The position numbers were made by a program, and so were the translations under genes. Below the pieces are notes generated by a model that was given only the letters and a program-made list of their open reading frames with translations, had not been told where the DNA came from and did no database searches. This document shows positions 806 to 22,754 of a stretch of 27,469 bases of DNA, in pieces. How positions within the stretch are numbered: the stretch's first letter is position 1; every line of letters starts with the position of its first letter. Origin of the DNA: a virus; the IMG/VR virus record IMGVR_UViG_3300014960_000003, positions 1 through 27,469 of that record; one strand, written 5' to 3'.

Positions 806-1546
806 TTAAAAAGGCACATCGTCGAAGCTGGGATCTTCCGCCTTCTCGATTTCCTCGAGGCGCTTTGTAACCGCGGCGATCAGCATGATGTCTTCAGCCG
901 TCTTTCCGCTGTTGACCTTAGCCTTCGGCAGCCAGTGCTCGGCCAGGCCGCGCACAGCATCTGACGTTAGCTCCGACAACGGCACGCCCTTGAACTTTCC
1001 AACGTGCACCTTGACGTCTGCCAGCTTCACAGGAGAAGCCGTAGCAGGCACCACGGTGGTCACCTTGTCGTCTTCCTTGGGCGGCCTGTCCTGCAGTCGC
1101 ACCCACAGGCCCGACGGCTTCAACGGCTCGCCATGCTTGTGCGGCATGATCAGCTTGATGTTGGCGAACGTCTTGGTGCCGTCCTGGCTCTTCTCATGGA
1201 CGATCACCACGGTGGCCTGGCGCCCGATGAGGCCGTCCAGGTCGAGGTTGTTGGTCTCCTCGGCAGTGAGCGGCCTGCCGAACCAGTCCTTCAGGAACCG
1301 GGTCAGGCCGGCCTTCTCGTGCAGACTTGGGGTCATTGGGGCGGTCATCACCACCCATGGCTGCACCGGGTTCCGGCTCTTGTCGATTAGGTCGAGCTCG
1401 AATGCGATTTTAAACTTTTGTTTGGTGCCGTACTGCGTTTCGTAGGCCTTGAGCGGCGTGATGTCGACGCACACTGCTCGGCCGGTGTATTCCGGGCACG
1501 GCTCGAAATTGCCGCCGCCCTTGTTGCTTGTGACTGTGATTCCCAT
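806..1546 (-). CDS. Single-stranded DNA-binding protein-like, acidic tail ending DDVPF
   Basis: This 246-aa protein has an N-terminal region (about 1-145) rich in alternating strands, compatible with the OB-like domain of phage ssDNA-binding proteins. It ends EKAEDPSFDDVPF. That tail closely matches the conserved tip of bacterial SSB (acidic residues then D-D-I-P-F), which binds partner enzymes such as exonucleases, primase and RecO. Between them, GKFKGVPLSEL at about residues 178-195 resembles the short motif of DUF3820-type proteins. Neighbours are a DEDD exonuclease and an HTH protein, a sensible setting for an SSB. The start ATG has no Shine-Dalgarno; about 30 bases of A/C-rich leader precede it. 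SSB function is inferred from the tail, size and context; the OB fold itself is not proven from sequence. Confidence 0.6.
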   Translation of the reverse strand: MGITVTSNKGGGNFEPCPEYTGRAVCVDITPLKAYETQYGTKQKFKIAFELDLIDKSRNPVQPWVVMTAPMTPSLHEKAGLTRFLKDWFGRPLTAEETNNLDLDGLIGRQATVVIVHEKSQDGTKTFANIKLIMPHKHGEPLKPSGLWVRLQDRPPKEDDKVTTVVPATASPVKLADVKVHVGKFKGVPLSELTSDAVRGLAEHWLPKAKVNSGKTAEDIMLIAAVTKRLEEIEKAEDPSFDDVPF

Positions 1547-1923: not shown

Positions 1924-2120
1924 GGTTTGGGTTGAATGATGAAGTCGAAATTGGTCTGCCAGGTCTCGCACAGCCTGTTGTAGCTGTCGTCCTTGATCCG
2001 CCAGGTGCGCGGATCCCGGGTCGCCCCGGTGTGCCGGCATCGGATGCGCACGTCTATGTCTTTGAGTGCCGTGTTGCGCAGCGGGTGGTCGGTGGGCAGC
2101 TCGTGCAGTTTGTTGATCAT
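1920..2120 (-). CDS. Small protein of unknown function (66 aa)
   Basis: It starts with MINKLHELPTDHPLR at an ATG that overlaps the TGA of the preceding gene. The Shine-Dalgarno AAGGAGG lies inside that gene's final codons, a diverged copy of the junction cassette. The remaining protein contains DVRIRCRHTGATRDPRTWRI and a C-terminal FDFIIQPKP. Unlike genes upstream it ends in QPKP rather than KEAKP, so the cassette series stops here. The family is not recognised. It is probably soluble, since no hydrophobic stretch long enough for a membrane is present. Confidence 0.6.
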   Translation of the reverse strand: MINKLHELPTDHPLRNTALKDIDVRIRCRHTGATRDPRTWRIKDDSYNRLCETWQTNFDFIIQPKP

Positions 2121-2134
2121 TTCTCCGCCTCCTT
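2117..2134 (-). repeat. Diverged junction cassette (KEAEK)
   Basis: Coding strand AAGGAGGCGGAGAAATGA. It encodes K-E-A-E-K-stop for the upstream gene and provides SD plus ATGA start for the downstream gene. Compared with the exact copies, the GCC AAG CCG core has become GCG GAG AAA and the start is ATG rather than GTG. Confidence 0.75.
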
Positions 2135-2293
2135 CTCCCACATATTGCGATAAATTGTCGGTCCGTACTCGGTTGTTTCGAGTCCAAGCTCGATCAGGTG
2201 TTTGATGCGTTGCTTCAACGCTTCGTTCTCCGCTCTCAGCGCGTCTCGTTCCTCGAACAGAGACACGACCAGCTTGCCATTGAAGTCACTCAC
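2117..2293 (-). CDS. Coiled-coil mini-protein (58 aa), cassette-linked
   Basis: The start is the GTG inside the junction cassette (VSDFNGKLV...). A longer in-frame reading upstream merely translates the cassette in the wrong phase. Residues about 12-36 (RDALRAENEALKQRIKHLIE) show heptads of Leu/Ile typical of a parallel coiled coil, followed by a Gly-containing turn and TTEYGPTIYRNMWEKEAEK. The segment R-I-K-x-L-x-x-x-G is shared with four other small proteins in this window, so they appear to be paralogues. Function unknown; such proteins may act as oligomerising adaptors or inhibitors of host proteins, which is inference only. Confidence 0.65.
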   Translation of the reverse strand: MSDFNGKLVVSLFEERDALRAENEALKQRIKHLIELGLETTEYGPTIYRNMWEKEAEK

Positions 2294-2307
2294 GGCTTGG
2301 CCTCCTT
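2290..2307 (-). repeat. Junction cassette, exact copy 1
   Basis: Coding strand AAGGAGGCCAAGCCGTGA. It serves three jobs: last codons K-E-A-K-P-stop of the upstream gene, a perfect Shine-Dalgarno, and a GTG start overlapping the stop by four bases. Confidence 0.9.
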
Positions 2308-2547
2308 CACTTTGATCCATTGTAAATACGCATCCGAATCGGATTCATCTCTCAGTCTCAAACGATATGCTATTTCATCCCCCGCCTCCTGCAGCCGCTT
2401 GATGCGGTCTTCAGCGGCATTCAGTTCGCGTTCAAGACTTCTCGCAAACGGAGCGTTTACCCACGGGTTTCCGTCGATGTAAACGACTCGTTCGTCTGTA
2501 CACGGTGTATCGACCATTTTGTTGGTGTTACCAATATGGTTGCTCAT
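2290..2547 (-). CDS. Coiled-coil mini-protein (85 aa) ending KEAKP
   Basis: It starts at an ATG overlapping the preceding TGA (MSNHIGNTNKM), with AAGGAGG seven bases upstream. Residues about 35-66 hold a coiled coil (RSLERELNAAEDRIKRLQEA) followed by GDEIAYRLRLRDES. The R-I-K-R-L-x-E-A-G-D motif is nearly identical to one in the 159-aa gene upstream in the same array, and the underlying 28 bases are 26/28 identical. The N-terminal part (VVYIDGNPWVNAPF) is unique to it. It ends in the cassette-encoded KEAKP. No known function. Confidence 0.65.
   Translation of the reverse strand: MSNHIGNTNKMVDTPCTDERVVYIDGNPWVNAPFARSLERELNAAEDRIKRLQEAGDEIAYRLRLRDESDSDAYLQWIKVKEAKP
2377..2404 (-). repeat. 28-bp repeat within coiled-coil region, copy A
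   Basis: This segment matches 3776-3803 at 26 of 28 positions. It encodes RIKRLQEAGD in the 85-aa gene. The flanks are not alike, so it marks a recently shared or recombined coiled-coil module. Confidence 0.75.
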
Positions 2548-2558
2548 TTGGCCTCCTT
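2544..2558 (-). repeat. Junction cassette, shortened ATG variant
   Basis: Coding strand AAGGAGGCCAAATGA: identical to the exact copies for the first eleven bases, then shortened by one codon. The upstream protein ends KEAK and the downstream gene starts with ATG overlapping TGA. Confidence 0.85.
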
Positions 2559-2933
2559 TACACGGCGGATGCACTTCAGGAGTTCGTTGGAGCAAGTTCC
2601 AAGCGTCCTAGATTGGGTGTCCAGGGACAGGTAGACGCTGTTGTGGGTTCCGTACTGCTGTTTCTGGGCGTTGGCCCTCTCGCGCAGTTTCCGAGACTCA
2701 TCAGACCACTGCTCAACAAGCTCTGTCAGAAGGCTCATCGGGTCGGGTTTGATGCGGTATTCGACAAGGTGCCAGTTCCATTTTGGATCAACCACCGCTT
2801 GCCACGCATCTTCGCTCATGTCTCGGAACCGGAATTCTATTTGCTTGCCTGATTTGAACGCCTGCATGACACCGATCTGGTAGTCGATGTCGGCCGTGTC
2901 TACGGCTGCTTCTCTTGCTTGTTCGCGTGTCAC
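2544..2933 (-). CDS. Hypothetical phage protein with W-x-x-x-EYRIKP motif (129 aa)
   Basis: It starts at the cassette GTG (VTREQAREAAVDTADIDYQIG). Residues about 25-70 contain FKSGKQIEFRFRDMSEDAW and KWNWHLVEYRIKPDP. This 'modify-x-x-W...W-x-W...YRIKP' pattern is a small domain I recognise from many uncharacterised phage early proteins. A helical C-terminal half (LTELVEQWSDESRKLRERANAQKQ) follows, then SNELLKCIRRVKEAK, whose last residues are encoded by the next cassette. It is the largest but one of the cassette-linked genes. The biochemical function of the domain is unknown to me. Confidence 0.7.
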   Translation of the reverse strand: MTREQAREAAVDTADIDYQIGVMQAFKSGKQIEFRFRDMSEDAWQAVVDPKWNWHLVEYRIKPDPMSLLTELVEQWSDESRKLRERANAQKQQYGTHNSVYLSLDTQSRTLGTCSNELLKCIRRVKEAK

Positions 2934-2947
2934 GGCTTGGCCTCCTT
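2930..2947 (-). repeat. Junction cassette, exact copy 2
   Basis: Same 18 bases as at 2290. Flanking codons differ on both sides (TGG before, ACA after the overlap), so identity is limited to the junction. Confidence 0.9.
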
Positions 2948-3118
2948 CCATTTGAATTGAACGTCTCCGCTCGCGTTGTTGGTGTAGTAGGCAACTCCTG
3001 CGCGGATGGATTCTTCTTTGAATTTTGATTTTCCGATGTGGTAACCGAGTGCTAATGCACAGAGCAGAAATATTCCTGTTATTGCTCCGGCGATGGTTGG
3101 AAATGGATCGTCTCTCAC
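2930..3118 (-). CDS. Single-span membrane mini-protein (62 aa) ending KEAKP
   Basis: Starting from the cassette GTG (VRDDPFPTIAG), the protein has one clear membrane helix at about residues 8-28 (TIAGAITGIFLLCALALGYH). A basic stretch (KSKFKEESIRAG) follows, then a short tail ending in KEAKP. By charge, the C-terminal part should stay in the cytoplasm. It is the only membrane protein in the small-gene array. Possible roles such as superinfection exclusion or membrane anchoring of array partners are guesses. It is not obviously a holin, because only one span is present and it lies among early-type genes. Confidence 0.65.
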   Translation of the reverse strand: MRDDPFPTIAGAITGIFLLCALALGYHIGKSKFKEESIRAGVAYYTNNASGDVQFKWKEAKP

Positions 3119-3132
3119 GGCTTGGCCTCCTT
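3115..3132 (-). repeat. Junction cassette, exact copy 3
   Basis: Same 18 bases as at 2290; encodes KEAKP-stop of the 66-aa gene and the SD/GTG start of the membrane mini-protein. Confidence 0.9.
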
Positions 3133-3315
3133 GGATTTTACCCATTGGTCCGACGCTTTTCGGCAGTCTTTGCATGGCCCGTCTTGTCCGCAGCCGCACC
3201 CAATCCGATCATCCAGTTCTGCTCCAAGACGCTGAAGTAGATTGATTCGGGCCTTTAGCTGCTTGTTCTCACGACGCAGCCTGTCGCGCTCTACGACCAG
3301 TATTAGAGCACTCAC
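3115..3315 (-). CDS. Coiled-coil mini-protein with Cys cluster (66 aa), ends KEAKP
   Basis: Translation from the cassette GTG gives VSALILVVERDRLRRENKQL. Residues about 9-34 form a coiled coil (DRLRRENKQLKARINLLQRL) followed by GAELDDRIG, matching the paralogous pattern R-I-x-x-L-x-x-x-G-x-E. Next comes a compact cysteine cluster, CGCGQDGPCKDC, with four Cys in twelve residues. It could bind one zinc ion, which none of the other coiled-coil members show. It ends SDQWVKSKEAKP. The combination suggests an oligomeric, possibly nucleic-acid- or protein-binding factor, but the family is unrecognised. Confidence 0.65.
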   Translation of the reverse strand: MSALILVVERDRLRRENKQLKARINLLQRLGAELDDRIGCGCGQDGPCKDCRKASDQWVKSKEAKP

Positions 3316-3329
3316 GGCTTGGCCTCCTT
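3312..3329 (-). repeat. Junction cassette, exact copy 4
   Basis: Same 18 bases as at 2290; preceded by CAC (His) and followed by GTGAGTGCT. Confidence 0.9.
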
Positions 3330-3659
3330 GTGCGGGACCAGTTTGTAGTCCCAGTCCTCAATGTAACCCGACTCCCTGTCGCGGAACTCGTTGATCCAGA
3401 TCATCTGGTACACTCCGTCATCCACTTCATCGAGGTTGACGATTCGCTGCATTACTGAGTCGGCACCACCACAAGACGCATCCTCTTCGATGGAGAAGAC
3501 ACAGTCCCTGTCGCTCTTTCGCTTGAGGAACTCGATGCGCTTGGTCATGGCGAGCCCACGATTGGTCGTGTAGTAGGTGGTGCTGACCTTGACCACAACG
3601 CCCTTGTAGAGGGCTCTGGAGTCGGGATTGAGCACCGCGTCGAGGTTGAGCGAACTCAC
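3312..3659 (-). CDS. Hypothetical acidic beta-rich protein (115 aa), ends KEAKP
   Basis: From the cassette GTG the protein reads VSSLNLDAVLNPDSRALYKG. The central part (YKGVVVKVSTTYYTTNRGLA, then TKRIEFLKRKSDRDCVFSIEED) looks like a beta-rich fold. The C-terminal region (NLDEVDDGVYQMIWINEFRDRESGYIEDWDYKLVP) resembles the 'x-x-W-x-Y-K-L-V-P' ends of small phage early proteins. It shares no coiled-coil motif with its neighbours, so the array is not simply repeated duplication of one gene. Function unknown. Confidence 0.65.
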   Translation of the reverse strand: MSSLNLDAVLNPDSRALYKGVVVKVSTTYYTTNRGLAMTKRIEFLKRKSDRDCVFSIEEDASCGGADSVMQRIVNLDEVDDGVYQMIWINEFRDRESGYIEDWDYKLVPHKEAKP

Positions 3660-3673
3660 GGCTTGGCCTCCTT
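3656..3673 (-). repeat. Junction cassette, exact copy 5
   Basis: Same 18 bases as at 2290; ends the 159-aa gene and starts the 115-aa gene. Confidence 0.9.
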
Positions 3674-4135
3674 GGCTTCGTGCCATGCTTCACTTGCTTT
3701 GAGCTTGGCCTCCTTTGCTTTGCGCCATCTCTCAACCAGCTCTTCAAAGTCAAGCTGTTCATTGTACGCCATGAAATCCCCCGCCTCCTCCAGCCGCTTG
3801 ATCCTCGCCAACGCCTCCGTGTGCCTCTTCGCCAGTTCGGACACGATGGTCTCTGCGACGTGATCACCCACGCACACGCCGTCCTTCTCGGTCGCGCCGG
3901 GAAAGTTCTTCTGGTCGTCCTTGAACCACGGGTAGCCGAGCACCTTGCCGCAGGTCTGCTCGATCTCTTGGTTCTGCTTGAGGATGCCCTCGTACAGCCG
4001 CTTGACCTTCTCGCTCAGCTGCTCCAACCGCAGAGCAGCCTCGTGGAGCGCAGCGTTGGCCACGCCGTCGTCGGACTGGATCTCTGCGGCCATGACGCGC
4101 AGCGCCATCACCAGCTTTTCGGTGGAGGTGTTCAC
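3656..4135 (-). CDS. Helical coiled-coil protein (159 aa) with buried cassette copy, ends KEAKP
   Basis: The start is GTG in a GTGA overlap (VNTSTEKLVMALRVMAAEIQ) behind a diverged cassette with GGGAGG. Two helical regions are visible: about residues 30-60 (AALRLEQLSEKVKRLYEGIL) and 103-118 (RHTEALARIKRLEEAGDFMA). The second carries the shared R-I-K-R-L-x-E-A-G-D motif and the 28-bp repeat. The C-terminus reads AKEAKLKASEAWHEAKEAKP: it contains KEAK twice because a thirteen-base cassette remnant lies about 40 bases before the real one. I read this as an old junction that lost its stop and start, leaving a fused tail. Function unknown. Confidence 0.7.
   Translation of the reverse strand: MNTSTEKLVMALRVMAAEIQSDDGVANAALHEAALRLEQLSEKVKRLYEGILKQNQEIEQTCGKVLGYPWFKDDQKNFPGATEKDGVCVGDHVAETIVSELAKRHTEALARIKRLEEAGDFMAYNEQLDFEELVERWRKAKEAKLKASEAWHEAKEAKP
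3703..3715 (-). repeat. Buried cassette remnant without stop or start
   Basis: Coding strand AAGGAGGCCAAGC: the first thirteen bases of the junction cassette, in the same reading phase (K-E-A-K), but followed by CTC instead of CGTGA. It retains a perfect SD but no start codon at proper spacing. Confidence 0.8.
3776..3803 (-). repeat. 28-bp repeat within coiled-coil region, copy B
   Basis: Matches 2377-2404 at 26 of 28 positions; encodes RIKRLEEAGD in the 159-aa gene. Confidence 0.75.
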
Positions 4136-4149
4136 AGCTTCACCTCCCT
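4132..4149 (-). repeat. Diverged junction cassette (REVKL)
   Basis: Coding strand AGGGAGGTGAAGCTGTGA. The layout is the same as the exact copies (SD, seven-base spacer, GTGA overlap) with 14 of 18 bases conserved. It is the upstream-most recognisable member of the series. Confidence 0.7.
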
Positions 4150-4449
4150 CGCTTTGAGCATCGCGTCGGCTGCTTGGTATGCGTTCTTCGCGTCAGCTTC
4201 CCAGCTTGAGCCACCTCCATCAGCTAACAACCCCTGCAACGCCGCAGCAGCGAAGTAGTCGCGGAGGGTCATCCCGGGGCTGCCGTACTGCACCTCGCCG
4301 TTTGGGAACTGCAAGTCGGGTTGCGGAAATGCCGGTCCTCCGTCGTTGACCTGGTTGCTCATTGGTCGTTGCAATTGCGGTTGATATGGCCCCGTCTGAC
4401 CAACGGCCGTGAATGATGTTGGCATCGGATCTGGATAGATATGGCTCAT
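4132..4449 (-). CDS. Hypothetical phage protein with GMTLRDYFAAAAL motif (105 aa)
   Basis: It starts at ATG overlapping the previous TGA (MSHIYPDPMPTSFTAVG). The Pro/Gln-rich first 35 residues look disordered. Residues about 36-80 match a familiar but uncharacterised phage protein pattern: NDGGPAFPQPD, then GSPGMTLRDYFAAAALQGLL. The C-terminal WEADAKNAYQAADAMLKAR is helical. Proteins with this 'DGGPAFP ... GMTLRDYFA' pattern are common among small early genes of tailed phages, and I know of no assigned role. It precedes the cassette-linked run and ends in a diverged cassette. Confidence 0.75.
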   Translation of the reverse strand: MSHIYPDPMPTSFTAVGQTGPYQPQLQRPMSNQVNDGGPAFPQPDLQFPNGEVQYGSPGMTLRDYFAAAALQGLLADGGGSSWEADAKNAYQAADAMLKAREVKL

Positions 4450-4763
4450 TGCCGTCCCTCCAGATCCTCGACCACGCTGATGGTCCGGTTCACGTCAGCG
4501 AGCCACTTCTGAACGTAGTCCCTGCGGAAGTCCTCGCGCACGGCGTCTCTCAATGCTTCTTTTGCAAGCGCGATGATAGCGGGAGCCCATGTGTCCCGTC
4601 TCACAGAGACGTGTGGAGCACCCGCTGCTGTGATCACCTCGGACTTGGTGTAGCCCCGCATCCGGGGGTGTTTCAGGGGTGCATCCATAGGCTCCAGCAG
4701 CTTCTCCAGTTCACGATCTGCTGCGTCGTAGAGTGCGGCCTCGATGTCGGATATGGTTTTCAT
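4446..4763 (-). CDS. Helical protein of unknown function (105 aa)
   Basis: MKTISDIEAALYDAADRELE starts at an ATG overlapping the RNA ligase TGA. The protein is helical throughout (EALRDAVREDFRRDYVQKWL) with a central turn region (RMRGYTKSEVITAAGAPHVS). It has no membrane segment or known motif. It ends DLEGRQ, and GGAGGG in those codons serves as the Shine-Dalgarno for the next gene. The close coupling to the RNA ligase suggests co-expression; a functional link is not shown. Confidence 0.65.
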   Translation of the reverse strand: MKTISDIEAALYDAADRELEKLLEPMDAPLKHPRMRGYTKSEVITAAGAPHVSVRRDTWAPAIIALAKEALRDAVREDFRRDYVQKWLADVNRTISVVEDLEGRQ

Positions 4764-5746
4764 TGGTCCTTGTAGTTGCGGTTGATGATCTTAAAACCGA
4801 GCGGACGACCGCTGCCCATGGCACCACCCTTGCACGGTCGCACCACGATTCCCTCGGCGGGGATATTCTTGGTCTCGGTCACGAACTCCATATCGTCGGC
4901 AAGCACTTGCAGTTGGTCGAGCGTCCATCCGATGGGCACGAGCCCAACAAGCGGAACGACTTTGCATGCGAGCTTCTGAGCGCACATGTGCATGTCCGCG
5001 TAGTGGAGCCACTCGCCGGTATCAAGGTTGCGGATCTGGTAGGCGTAGAGCGTCGGCTCCATGAGGCCCATCTGGTTGCCCTGCACACCCGGCCCCATGA
5101 GCTCGCCCTGAATGACGAGGTTCATGTCCGGCGTCAGCGTCAGCTTCTTGGCGGCTCGCCAAAATCCGTTGTTCTCCGACTCCTTGAGCGAAAGGTTGCG
5201 CGAACAGACGTACTCGATCTTGCCCCCGCGCACGATGATGGTGCATGACGATCCATCCAGCTTCATGGTCGCGAAGCACTCCTGCTCTAGGACGAACTTC
5301 ACGATGTCCGGGTTGCTGAGCCCGTTGTCCTCGTCCGTCTTGGGGGCAAGGTGAAGCGGGAAGTTGCCCTGGACCTCGCCGCTCAGGCACGCCGGGATCT
5401 CCTTCTCGTACTTCTTCACGCCGAGCTCACCCCCAACGTCAGCACCAGTCTGCCATCCGCGAACGTGCTCGGGCAGGATCGACAGCGGCTGCACCAGGCC
5501 CTGACTGTACTGGCCACGCAGCTTGATCGTGTTGATGCGGATGGGCTTGTTGCCCTTCTTCAGGAACTCCGACCAAGGTGCGTCTGGGAGGATGGTGTCG
5601 ATGGGGAAGAACACGACCGACTCACCGGCCTTGAACTCGCCCTTGCGGACGATGATCTGCCACCCCAAGACCTTGGCGATCTCAAGGGAGTCTGCGTTCG
5701 TGTGTGGGAATATCTCCGCTATAGTTTCGATGGATGCTAGTTTCAT
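4760..5746 (-). CDS. Rnl5-type RNA ligase (DraRnl-like)
   Basis: This 328-aa protein is an ATP-dependent RNA ligase of the Deinococcus radiodurans DraRnl (Rnl5) type. Residues 1-90 form the family's N-terminal OB-like domain (IFPHTNADSLEIAKVLGWQ, GEFKAGESVVFFPIDTILP, INTIKLRGQYSQGLVQPL). The nucleotidyltransferase motifs follow: motif I MKLDGSS with adenylated Lys162, SRN at 182-184, motif III VIQGELMGPG with Glu215, LYAYQI at about 233, motif IV EGIVVRP with Glu298, and motif V GFKIIN with Lys319. All key residues are present, so it should be active. The known family seals 3'-OH/5'-phosphate nicks in duplexes whose 3' side is RNA. I chose the ATG at MKLASIE; earlier in-frame starts overlap another gene and lack homologous sequence. 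No canonical SD is visible (GAGCAACAAC before ATG). Confidence 0.9.
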   Translation of the reverse strand: MKLASIETIAEIFPHTNADSLEIAKVLGWQIIVRKGEFKAGESVVFFPIDTILPDAPWSEFLKKGNKPIRINTIKLRGQYSQGLVQPLSILPEHVRGWQTGADVGGELGVKKYEKEIPACLSGEVQGNFPLHLAPKTDEDNGLSNPDIVKFVLEQECFATMKLDGSSCTIIVRGGKIEYVCSRNLSLKESENNGFWRAAKKLTLTPDMNLVIQGELMGPGVQGNQMGLMEPTLYAYQIRNLDTGEWLHYADMHMCAQKLACKVVPLVGLVPIGWTLDQLQVLADDMEFVTETKNIPAEGIVVRPCKGGAMGSGRPLGFKIINRNYKDQ

Positions 5747-5955: not shown

Positions 5956-6188
5956 CGGTTGATCCTCCCGTGCTCAATCACGGCCTGCACCCCCCGCCGG
6001 CTGCAGCCGATGGCTCGGGCAATTTCATCTCGGCTGGCTCCGTTGTTCCACATCCGCCAGGCCAGTCCGCTGTCGAAGGCCTCGACAGCCTGGGCGAAGT
6101 TGCGTGTGAGCGTGCGCTGCTTCACCTCGGCCTGCTCCGGGAAGCTGATCCAGCCCGCGGCGACAGCCTTGCTCATGTCGATCTTCAC
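5952..6188 (-). CDS. Small helix-turn-helix protein (78 aa)
   Basis: The start is a GTG in a GTGA overlap with the resolvase gene, with GGAGGG upstream (VKIDMSKAVAAGWISFP). The C-terminal part holds a helix-turn-helix at about residues 50-72: GASRDEIARAIGCSRRGVQAVIEHGRI, where the pattern resembles GcrA-like or resolvase-type HTHs that bind DNA. The N-terminal segment (FAQAVEAFDSGLAWRMWNNG) is helical. It is probably a DNA-binding regulator or accessory factor of the resolvase and RNA ligase operon. The target is unknown. Confidence 0.7.
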   Translation of the reverse strand: MKIDMSKAVAAGWISFPEQAEVKQRTLTRNFAQAVEAFDSGLAWRMWNNGASRDEIARAIGCSRRGVQAVIEHGRINR

Positions 6189-6640
6189 TTAAGGCCCTCC
6201 GCGATCATGGCGTGCTCCAGAATGAGCACGGCGTCCGAGGTCTTGAGCGTGATCAGGATGCCGGGCTGGCGCTGCTGGGCGATGCCCTTCAGGTGCGCCT
6301 TCCAGCGCGTGCCATGCGTCTTGCTGTTGCCGGCCCCGATGGTCTTCTGCCAGCGCTGTGGCGGCACCTCAATGCAGCGCACGTTCATGCTGGCGATCAG
6401 GCCATGCAGGAACCCGACGTTGCGACCGAAATTGAACATCGCAGAGCCAGGTGCGCCCTTGCCTCCGATGTAGCCGCCCACCTTCTCGATGTAGACCACG
6501 TCGCTCTGCGACAGGTAGTTGATCATCACCTCCCGCACGTCGCCGTCGGTGTCCGGCATAGGCTCGACGATCACCCGGCCATCGGCAAAGTGCGCGATGC
6601 CGCCGCTCGCCCCGGGATCAATGGCCAGAATGCGTCTCAT
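6185..6640 (-). CDS. RuvC-like Holliday junction resolvase
   Basis: This 151-aa protein belongs to the RNase H-like RuvC superfamily. Residues 1-16 (MRRILAIDPGASGGIA) form the first strand with the catalytic Asp8 and the usual D-P-G. VVYIEKVGGY at 48-57 carries the second acidic residue, Glu52. PPQRWQKTIGAG near 94-104 matches the family's W-K region, and KTSDAVLILEHA near 133-144 supplies the last Asp136. Small phage RuvC-like enzymes of this kind cleave branched DNA before packaging. The start at MRRILAI overlaps the TGA of the previous gene (ATGA); the longer reading frame would only add residues encoded inside that gene. Neighbouring HTH and RHH genes fit a DNA-processing operon. Confidence 0.85.
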   Translation of the reverse strand: MRRILAIDPGASGGIAHFADGRVIVEPMPDTDGDVREVMINYLSQSDVVYIEKVGGYIGGKGAPGSAMFNFGRNVGFLHGLIASMNVRCIEVPPQRWQKTIGAGNSKTHGTRWKAHLKGIAQQRQPGILITLKTSDAVLILEHAMIAEGLK

Positions 6641-20624: not shown

Positions 20625-22754
20625 TTAGGCGGTGACCAGAACCTCGGCCTGCGTGGTGTCCGCGGCAGCGGCGCCGAACATGATGTCGTAGGACGCCATG
20701 TGGCTGCGGCTGGCGCGGCTGTACCAGACGGAGAGCAAGCAGCTCAGGCCGTTGTTGGTGGTGACCGTGCGCTGCTCGATGAACTCGCCCGGGATCATTC
20801 CAACCGGAAGGCCGGCGGCGATGGCGATGGCGTCAGGGCCGCAGACGAAACCAACGGCGTTGGTCTCGGCAGAGGTCCATCGGTTGTTCTCGGCGATCAC
20901 GTCAAAGCCGAACCGGCCGTTGTTCAGCGCCTCGTAGCGGCCATCCGGGAAGGTATTGGAAGCCGCGGAGAACTGCAGGCGGGCCAGGTGGCCACCGTCG
21001 AGGATCAGGTTCTTCGAGCGGTAGTTCTTCGCCAGGGCGAGGATCGCCGGGAGATCGCTGGTGTCGAAGTTCGCAGCCGTGCCGATAGCGGTGGCGGCGC
21101 CGTAGTTACCGGAGACCATCAGCGCGGTCAGGACGTCGCTGATGCCGTAGGCGAACAGGTCAGCCGAACCGGCAGCCAGGTCGGCCAGGGCGAAGCCCTG
21201 GTTCAGCTCCTGCTGGGTCACGGTGAAGTTCTTCGAGATCTGATTCACCGTCACCGAGGTGGCGGCCAGCGTGCTGTCGTTGTTGGTCTCCCAGCTCGAC
21301 GGGTTGGTCTGGGCGGCGGTGCCGGTGGTGAACTTCTTCACCTGGACCGTGGCGCGGGGGCGGAGGTTGTCCAGGCCGACGTTTCGAGAGAAGGCGCTGA
21401 CCAAGGCCAGGCGGGTGGCCGCCACGGTGATCACGGCGTCGGCGAGGTAATCAACAACCAGGCCAGAAGCGAACGTGTTCGCGTTCTGCGGGGCGTGCAG
21501 CGCCGACTGGCGGAGCAGCTCGCTGTGGTTCTGGATGAGGAAGTCGCGGCGCTTGGCACCGGCCTGCATCTTCTTGTGGGCCTCGAGCAGCGGGTTGCCG
21601 AGGTTCTCGATGCGAACCGGGGCGACGGGCTCCGGGGCAGGGGCGGCAGTGGGGACCTTGGCCGAGATCGCCGCGGCAACCGCCTTGGCGACGATGGACT
21701 CGATGTCGAGGGCGGCGGACGGCGCGGTAGGAGCGGCCGCCACCACGGTGTTGGTATCACTCATATCAGTGTGTGGTGTCTGTGATGTCGGCGCGGTTGT
21801 CGCGCCATCGCCGGCAGCGGGAGTGCTGTCGGTCGAAATCTTGTCGTCAGGCTCGGAGAGCTCTTCCTCTTCCTCGACCTGGGCAGCCAGTGCCTTGAAC
21901 CAATCACGGCCGGCAGCGCCGCCCCAGAGGTTCGCAGCCACATCGGCCGGTGTGTTGGGCTCGGCCTCGAGGAATCGCTCATTACGAGCCCACCAGGCCA
22001 CAGCCTTCTTGATCTTCTCGACGCTGGGCTCTTCGCCCTTCGCCATGTTGCGAGCCTCGATCACTGTGGCCTCTTCGAGACCATCGCCACCGAGGCCTTC
22101 CTCGTATTGCTGGATCCCTCGCTCGAGGTTCCTGCGCACCGTAGGAGGCGCCGTCCTGGAGACAGCCCGCGGGTGCCAGCAGGCAGCAATAGCCATCTGC
22201 ATCTCGGTCATCTTGTCAGCCAGGCCGAAATTGATGGCCTCCTGGGCGGTGAACCAGGTCTCTTCCTTCATCAAGGCTTTGATCTGATCCATCGGCTTTC
22301 CGGTGTTCTTCGCGTAGATCGAAGCCAGAACTTCGCCGTGCTGATCCAAGGCATCAGCCATCTTCCGCATATCGGAAGAGCTGCCGGCGACCATGCCGGA
22401 AGGGTCATGGATCATAAAGAGCGCCGCGTCGGCGATCTCTACGGTGTCGCCGGCCAGGGCGATGATGGAAGCGATTGAAGCAGCGATGCCGACCACCCGG
22501 GTGGTGACGGGCGCCTGCCGGCCTCGCAGCATATTGTAGATGGCGAAACCGTCCCAGACGTTGCCGCCCGGGCTGTTGATCTCGACCACCAGAGGCCCGG
22601 GGCCAACCGACTGCAGCGCATCGGAGAAAGCCTTGGCAGAGACGCCGGAACCACCGAACCAGTCTTCGCCGATCTGGTCGAAGATCTGGAGCACGGCAGG
22701 CTCAGAGGCCGAGGCCCGCGGGGTGTAAGACAGCCAGTTTGTGACCTTAGTCAT
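20625..22754 (-). CDS. ClpP-like head protease fused to major capsid protein (709 aa)
   Basis: Three parts are visible. Residues 1-200 are an S14 ClpP-like head maturation protease: EINSPGGNVWDGFAIY (58-73), nucleophile Ser93 in GIAASIAS, His116 in MIHDPSG; the position of the ClpP Asp appears to be Glu165 (KEETWFTA). Residues about 225-290 form a small helical domain (IEARNMAKGEEPSVEKIKKA, WWARNERFLEAE, ANLWGGAAGRDW) known from phage head proteins. An acidic, Pro/Ala-rich linker follows. From about 395 the major capsid protein extends to the end (RRDFLIQNHSELLRQSALHA, TVTQQELNQGFALADLAAGS). An ATG at residue 331 (MSDTNTVVAAAPTAPSAALD) with an A/C-rich leader could start a separate 379-aa capsid product. 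The reading frame overlaps the portal gene by eight bases. Confidence 0.85.
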   Translation of the reverse strand: MTKVTNWLSYTPRASASEPAVLQIFDQIGEDWFGGSGVSAKAFSDALQSVGPGPLVVEINSPGGNVWDGFAIYNMLRGRQAPVTTRVVGIAASIASIIALAGDTVEIADAALFMIHDPSGMVAGSSSDMRKMADALDQHGEVLASIYAKNTGKPMDQIKALMKEETWFTAQEAINFGLADKMTEMQMAIAACWHPRAVSRTAPPTVRRNLERGIQQYEEGLGGDGLEEATVIEARNMAKGEEPSVEKIKKAVAWWARNERFLEAEPNTPADVAANLWGGAAGRDWFKALAAQVEEEEELSEPDDKISTDSTPAAGDGATTAPTSQTPHTDMSDTNTVVAAAPTAPSAALDIESIVAKAVAAAISAKVPTAAPAPEPVAPVRIENLGNPLLEAHKKMQAGAKRRDFLIQNHSELLRQSALHAPQNANTFASGLVVDYLADAVITVAATRLALVSAFSRNVGLDNLRPRATVQVKKFTTGTAAQTNPSSWETNNDSTLAATSVTVNQISKNFTVTQQELNQGFALADLAAGSADLFAYGISDVLTALMVSGNYGAATAIGTAANFDTSDLPAILALAKNYRSKNLILDGGHLARLQFSAASNTFPDGRYEALNNGRFGFDVIAENNRWTSAETNAVGFVCGPDAIAIAAGLPVGMIPGEFIEQRTVTTNNGLSCLLSVWYSRASRSHMASYDIMFGAAAADTTQAEVLVTA

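Follow-up and report, generated by a model that had tools for sequence, protein, structure and literature searches.

Why does one phage sequence hold the same 18 bases, without a single difference, at five of the junctions between its small genes? The question is raised by IMG/VR virus record IMGVR_UViG_3300014960_000003, a metagenomic sequence of 27,469 bases that was analyzed over its whole length and is herein referred to as the window. The 18-mer AAGGAGGCCAAGCCGTGA, herein referred to as the cassette, was found in the window in five exact copies, all on the minus strand and all at gene junctions. The explanation preferred here, with a probability of about 0.72, is that gene units are exchanged by homologous recombination at a coupling joint they have in common.

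Each exact copy encodes KEAKP and the stop codon of the upstream gene and carries an AAGGAGG Shine-Dalgarno (SD) sequence, followed after 7 nt by the GTG with which the downstream gene starts, in a GTGA overlap. This triple role, proposed in an earlier note on this DNA, was confirmed for all five copies, as was their number; dinucleotide shuffles of the window give an expectation of 0.04 copies and never reached five. The diverged forms reported at 2117, 2544, and 4132 are also present. In the chain of small genes at 2117-4449, all junctions (five with the exact 18-mer and three with diverged forms) overlap by 4 bases. The cassettes are as follows, with the exact copies numbered in transcription order:

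3656..3673, minus strand, exact cassette 1 (KEAKP-stop, SD, GTGA start)
3312..3329, minus strand, exact cassette 2 (exact 18-mer)
3115..3132, minus strand, exact cassette 3 (exact 18-mer)
2930..2947, minus strand, exact cassette 4 (exact 18-mer)
2290..2307, minus strand, exact cassette 5 (exact 18-mer)
4132..4149, minus strand, diverged cassette AGGGAGGTGAAGCTGTGA (REVKL-stop)
2544..2561, minus strand, diverged cassette GTAAAGGAGGCCAAATGA (KEAK-stop, ATGA start)
2117..2134, minus strand, diverged cassette AAGGAGGCGGAGAAATGA (KEAEK-stop, ATGA start)
3703..3715, minus strand, internal partial copy AAGGAGGCCAAGC inside gene 3656-4135 (family D1, repeat copy 3693-3730)

The five exact junctions had been described as consecutive, which does not hold strictly, as the 2544 junction falls between two of them. 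Identity also extends to some degree beyond the exact 18-mer: a weaker TGGxxxAAAGCC-like extension recurs 5' of it in the flank profile, and the copies at 2290 and 3115 are 84% identical across 38 nt. No copies of the 18-mer with 1-3 mismatches were found elsewhere in the window.

In total, the exact 18-mer was found in at least 119 stretches of IMG/VR, in at least 172 copies, so it is not private to the window phage. Among the matches listed, on which the counts of flanks, arrays, and families given below also rest, up to six copies per contig were found. A second scan of IMG/VR with a 28-base version found 39 contigs, 8 of them already in the first set; from this overlap, the total is crudely estimated at about 500-700 IMG/VR contigs. 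The bacterial and archaeal genomes (257 Gb) contain 31 copies, all of them scattered singletons. Nearly all of the listed copies are located at gene junctions, in chains of small genes overlapping by 4 bp, and the exact 18-mer ends genes of 19 loose or 78 tight upstream families. Cassette arrays are present in at least two phage backbones: besides the backbone of the window, they were found on contigs that lack the window-type terminase and encode a RecT-like protein together with a DUF3799 nuclease. RecT-like genes are present on 27 of 50 contigs and DUF3799 on 23.

Three loci are of separate interest. At L101:1291-4325, genes for a RecT-like protein, a DUF3799 nuclease, and the thymidylate synthase ThyX directly adjoin the array. 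L107 (near the 5' gene) and L076 (record G037) contain open reading frames barely longer than the tail, MTKAKEAKP and VTTIKKTKAKEAKP, each followed by a stop codon; these look as if the gene had been lost and the joint alone retained.

Gene content on the two sides of the cassette was compared between copies, with a flank of 100 nt at ≥80% counted as shared. Pairs of exact copies with one side shared and the other unrelated (115 upstream and 93 downstream) outnumber the 31 pairs with both sides shared. In the independent second contig set, 92 upstream-only and 53 downstream-only pairs were found versus 30 both-shared pairs. The same gene is joined to different partners, and identity breaks at the cassette edges. 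Close relatives of the window, with the terminase at 89-95%, are collinear with it in the structural part but scrambled in the array, which is located between a RuvC-like gene and the gene at 806-1546. Neither of the two outcomes named in the earlier note as speaking against such exchange was found: the backbone keeps its order with a scrambled array, instead of one gene order with diverging junctions, and essentially all copies lie at junctions, instead of being spread evenly through coding sequence. Among downstream gene families with multiple partners, the junction class is constant in 51 of 58 (null 29; 0 of 10000 shuffles). Promiscuous families make up 48 of the 64 downstream families with the cassette and 11 of the 22 others (p about 0.04); because the units counted are sequences related to one another, all p-values here are indicative only.

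Homology blocks in 114 arrays have 35.5% of their ends at junctions, versus 11% at random. Left ends are most frequent at positions -16 to -13 from the start codon, and right ends at +4 to +7; these are the two edges of the cassette. Blocks running from junction to junction in both sequences account for 120 of 1090 internal blocks, with 12 expected by random placement. The clearest case is a two-gene block of 649 bp, bounded precisely by the cassette on both sides (AAGGAGGCC and CCGTGAGC), which is 100% identical between contigs L025 and G026 and lies between unrelated flanks. The backbones of these contigs differ, L025 having the RecT/DUF3799 module and G026 the window-type terminase without DUF3799. 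Three further blocks were displayed at base level. Within the cassette, the variable base -7 matches in 0.70 of the upstream-only pairs, 0.70 of the downstream-only pairs, and 0.94 of the both-shared pairs, with a background of 0.46. Because this base goes with the upstream gene as often as with the downstream one, crossovers fall inside the cassette, on both sides of base -7. These comparisons show that genes are exchanged as modules across phage backbones; the breakpoints lie at the joint, and the crossovers fall within it.

A second hotspot of block ends was found inside genes. The 30-mer CGCATCAAGCGGCTGGAGGAGGCGGGGGAT of the coil genes, encoding RIKRLEEAGD, is conserved at the nucleotide level (consensus of 96 instances in 114 arrays; array genes of L004-L119). 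This segment holds 11% of block ends versus 4%, and is a likely site of exchange within genes, similar in kind to the cassette.

In the proposed mechanism, small phage genes are linked into a hypervariable chain, and the 18-mer would be the standard joint between them. The last codons of each gene would hold the SD sequence and the start of the next gene, so that any gene of the pool may follow any other and be read by translational coupling. Because its nucleotides are identical everywhere, the joint would also be a short stretch of homology. Exchange inside it, between two phages or between two sites in one phage, would swap genes or gene blocks; each exchange would rebuild an intact joint, and the KEAKP tail would be a passenger. 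Annealing might be the work of a RecT-like phage protein acting with an exonuclease of the PD-(D/E)XK type, or of a host or RuvC-like pathway. The mechanism is plausible because Rad52-like phage recombinases work on short, diverged homology (PMC3945230). We infer homologous annealing as the exchange route and coupling inside the cell, with RecT-like phage recombinases probably being the agents; a dedicated enzyme acting on the joint is possible but unsupported. On balance, it seems somewhat probable that the joint is standardized at the nucleotide level, that uncultured phage lineages trade coupled genes through it, and that recombination within the joint regenerates it. Of the two explanations offered in the earlier note, selection for the coupling signal and recombination between cassettes by which genes are swapped whole and translation stays intact, the scrambled arrays and edge breakpoints favor the latter. 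As read from the sequences, the data on base -7, codon choice, junction class, and parental runs favor homologous exchange without proving it.

Several observations weigh against this explanation. The other NTGA junctions had been expected to be a quiet control, and this expectation failed: non-cassette junctions within 3 kb also shuffle (279 and 356 one-side pairs versus 129 both-shared), so that the cassette is not required for exchange and is the commonest joint of the arrays, not the sole one. Junctions more than 3 kb away shuffle much less (16 both-shared pairs versus 6 and 9 one-side pairs). Selection for intact genes after random exchange accounts for part of the pattern. The inferred parental junctions share a mean exact run of 10.7 nt versus 7.9 nt for random partners, and among cassette-like parental junctions the values are 10.9 versus 9.8 nt, both modest excesses. 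RecT and DUF3799 were not detected in the closest relatives of the window, the records of which are incomplete. No clean case of near-identical genomes differing by one cassette-bounded gene was found, and all contigs are metagenomic. What is general here is exchange at junctions of the SD-overlap type, among which the KEAKP cassette is the dominant standard. Other repeated junction "dialects" joining different genes were also observed, such as TGGAAGGAGTGCAAATGA (WKECK-stop) and TGGTTGGAGGGAAGATGA (WLEGR-stop).

Among the alternatives to homologous exchange, selection without homology survives best, although it is unlikely. Here, the genes would require tight translational coupling, their junctions would have converged on AAGGAGG, 7 nt, and GTGA as the best form, and sequence-independent shuffling would survive only at gene borders. 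The SD bases are indeed the most conserved part of the cassette, a 4-nt overlap was called at 509 of the 517 array junctions (by a home-made gene caller that gives a bonus to such overlaps), other array junctions shuffle as well, and the few chance copies in cellular genomes also sit at gene ends. By itself, selection for the coupling signal leaves the fixed spacer and codons unexplained, their identity going beyond the needs of SD, spacing, start, or peptide. After removal of one exact copy per locus, made because the loci were picked by the exact 18-mer, the Ala codon of the cassette is GCC in 116 cases, GCA in 16, GCT in 2, and GCG in 2, whereas Ala codon usage elsewhere in the array genes is near-even, with GCC and GCG equally used. 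The synonymous GCG cassette, functionally equivalent, exists in IMG/VR (31 copies in 28 stretches) but stands outside the pool: its flanks show no solid sharing with pool flanks, with two borderline pairs only. Selection alone also fits poorly with a junction class fixed per downstream family and a base -7 that tracks both neighbors. Cassettes with an SD-breaking GAA were found in 11 IMG/VR stretches, and both control forms are rare there; some flanks of the GAA copies are common to the pool, of which these copies are rare decayed members.

It is much less probable that the arrays arose by duplication of one coil gene, of which the cassette would be the conserved 3' end. Although 128 of the 162 genes ending in the exact cassette belong to one loosely linked coil superfamily and an internal duplicate was found in 10 of 114 arrays, 18 more loose families without detectable similarity carry the cassette, the downstream genes, which lack the tail, are equally mixed, and the coding sequence on either side has diverged, unlike the cassette itself. 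Pure paralogy was rejected on the grounds that unrelated families carry the cassette.

Selection for KEAKP as a functional C-terminal tag, such as a binding or degradation signal, is quite improbable. Every exact copy encodes KEAKP in the upstream frame, but variants with other peptides (177) far exceed those encoding KEAKP by other codons (18), and KEAKL, KEVKP, KEDKP, and others are common. This idea was rejected because the variation is mostly non-synonymous; what is conserved at the joint is DNA, not peptide. Least probable of all is an assembly artefact in which short repeats led assemblers to fuse unrelated contigs, for although the contigs are metagenomic and the joint is repeated, parental junctions share <21 identical bases in 88% of inferred recombinants, under the usual assembly k-mers, the same adjacencies recur across contigs (31 pairs in the first set and 30 in the second), and junctions without the repeat shuffle too.

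The genes of the window array and its conserved flanks are listed below in transcription order of the array, followed by the flanks:

4132..4449, minus strand, array gene, 105 aa (family F1; phrog_2201, function unknown)
3656..4135, minus strand, array gene, 159 aa, coil-rich
3312..3659, minus strand, array gene, 115 aa
3115..3315, minus strand, array gene, 66 aa (coil superfamily F0)
2930..3118, minus strand, array gene, 62 aa, with a single hydrophobic stretch that looks membrane-like by eye (family F2)
2544..2933, minus strand, array gene, 129 aa (phrog_21668, function unknown)
2290..2547, minus strand, array gene, 85 aa (coil superfamily F0, TNKMV-DTPCTD N-terminus)
2117..2293, minus strand, array gene, 58 aa, a coiled coil as judged by eye
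6185..6640, minus strand, RuvC-like Holliday junction resolvase, conserved array flank (phrog_1770)
806..1546, minus strand, conserved flank on the other side of the array (phrog_862; family F10)

Family F2 also occurs in relatives, beside other neighbors. The array proteins match only PHROGs of unknown function, with one minor match annotated as a regulator, and Pfam gave no function for any array gene. Against cultured phages, the array DNA had no match, the cassette with its flank had weak chance matches only, and two array proteins had no match and one a single weak match. Terminase, portal, and protease/capsid genes are also carried on the minus strand of the window. The portal matches in Verrucomicrobiota at only about 30%, too low to name a host, and this host assignment was rejected. 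An RNA ligase family gene (4760-5746, phrog_968) lies within the variable stretch and was not seen there in the closest relatives. The 709-aa protein encoded at 20625-22754 combines a head maturation protease domain with a long C-terminal extension and is probably a fused major capsid protein.

It has long been asked how phage mosaicism comes about, through homologous exchange at short border sequences or through random joining with later selection, and border sequences are noted to be missing at most phage mosaic borders (PMC3029335). An exact, countable border sequence with synonymous controls and recent transfers makes this question testable in a large natural system. Furthermore, cassette arrays show a route by which an operon can accept foreign genes without loss of translation, and a single 18-mer can be used to search for this pool of hypervariable small phage genes, which have no known function.

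The statement in the earlier note that no similar system has been described was too strong, as several known systems are related in principle. Start-Associated Sequences (SAS) of cluster K mycobacteriophages are 13 bp long, with the consensus GGGATAGGAGCCC (PMC3203893). Like the cassette, they are repeated, contain an SD sequence, and precede different gene families; nearly all have one orientation and lie in the non-structural half (PMC3203893). Unlike the cassette, they are mostly spaced >50 bp from the upstream gene, precede ATG starts, and do not include the tail of that gene, and exchange at SAS has not been shown. The cassette sequence differs from the SAS consensus. The PeSLs of T4, consisting of a promoter and a stem-loop between genes, are described as a mobile regulatory cassette (Arbiol 2010 and Comeau 2014, as cited in PMC4503421). 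As far as that source describes them, they too are a regulatory element that genes have in common and through which hyperplastic regions undergo modular shuffling; the KEAKP cassette differs in lying inside coding sequence, within overlapping genes that leave no intergenic space, and in acting at translation. The adjacent genes 67 and 68 of mycobacteriophage Island3 share their last 18 codons, which was explained by recombination across about 50 bp at the ends of genes (PMC3029335). That was a single event, with no shared start signal described and no family-wide use. Integron cassettes resemble the arrays as exchangeable one-gene units parted by a common site. In the arrays, however, the units share an operon and are translationally coupled, and the joint is 18 nt of coding sequence; no attC-like folded site was noticed at it, and no dedicated integrase was identified, no search for IntI having been made.

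The closest parallel is found in the nin regions of lambdoid phages, which are chains of ATGA-linked genes (PMC8022706). Recombination at boundary sequences has been proposed for lambdoid mosaicism (Clark et al. 2001 on HK620; Susskind and Botstein 1978; both as cited in PMC3029335). Both systems consist of small accessory genes with stop/start overlaps and the SD sequence inside the upstream gene, both include genes for recombination and for a resolvase, within the block or next to it, and in both the border sequences are proposed as points of homologous exchange. The traits of lambdoid-type linkers, namely an overlapping chain, a like sequence at the borders of unrelated modules, and breakpoints at the border, were all found here. 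In lambda and in P22, the nin junctions of one genome are only loosely alike, agreeing at no more than 13 of 18 bases, whereas the window cassette has 18 of 18 five times. Unlike the nin linkers, one cassette sequence serves about 78 tight families on >100 contigs, and identical blocks move between backbones. Thus, the cassette resembles the nin linkers in principle and is far more exact and portable.

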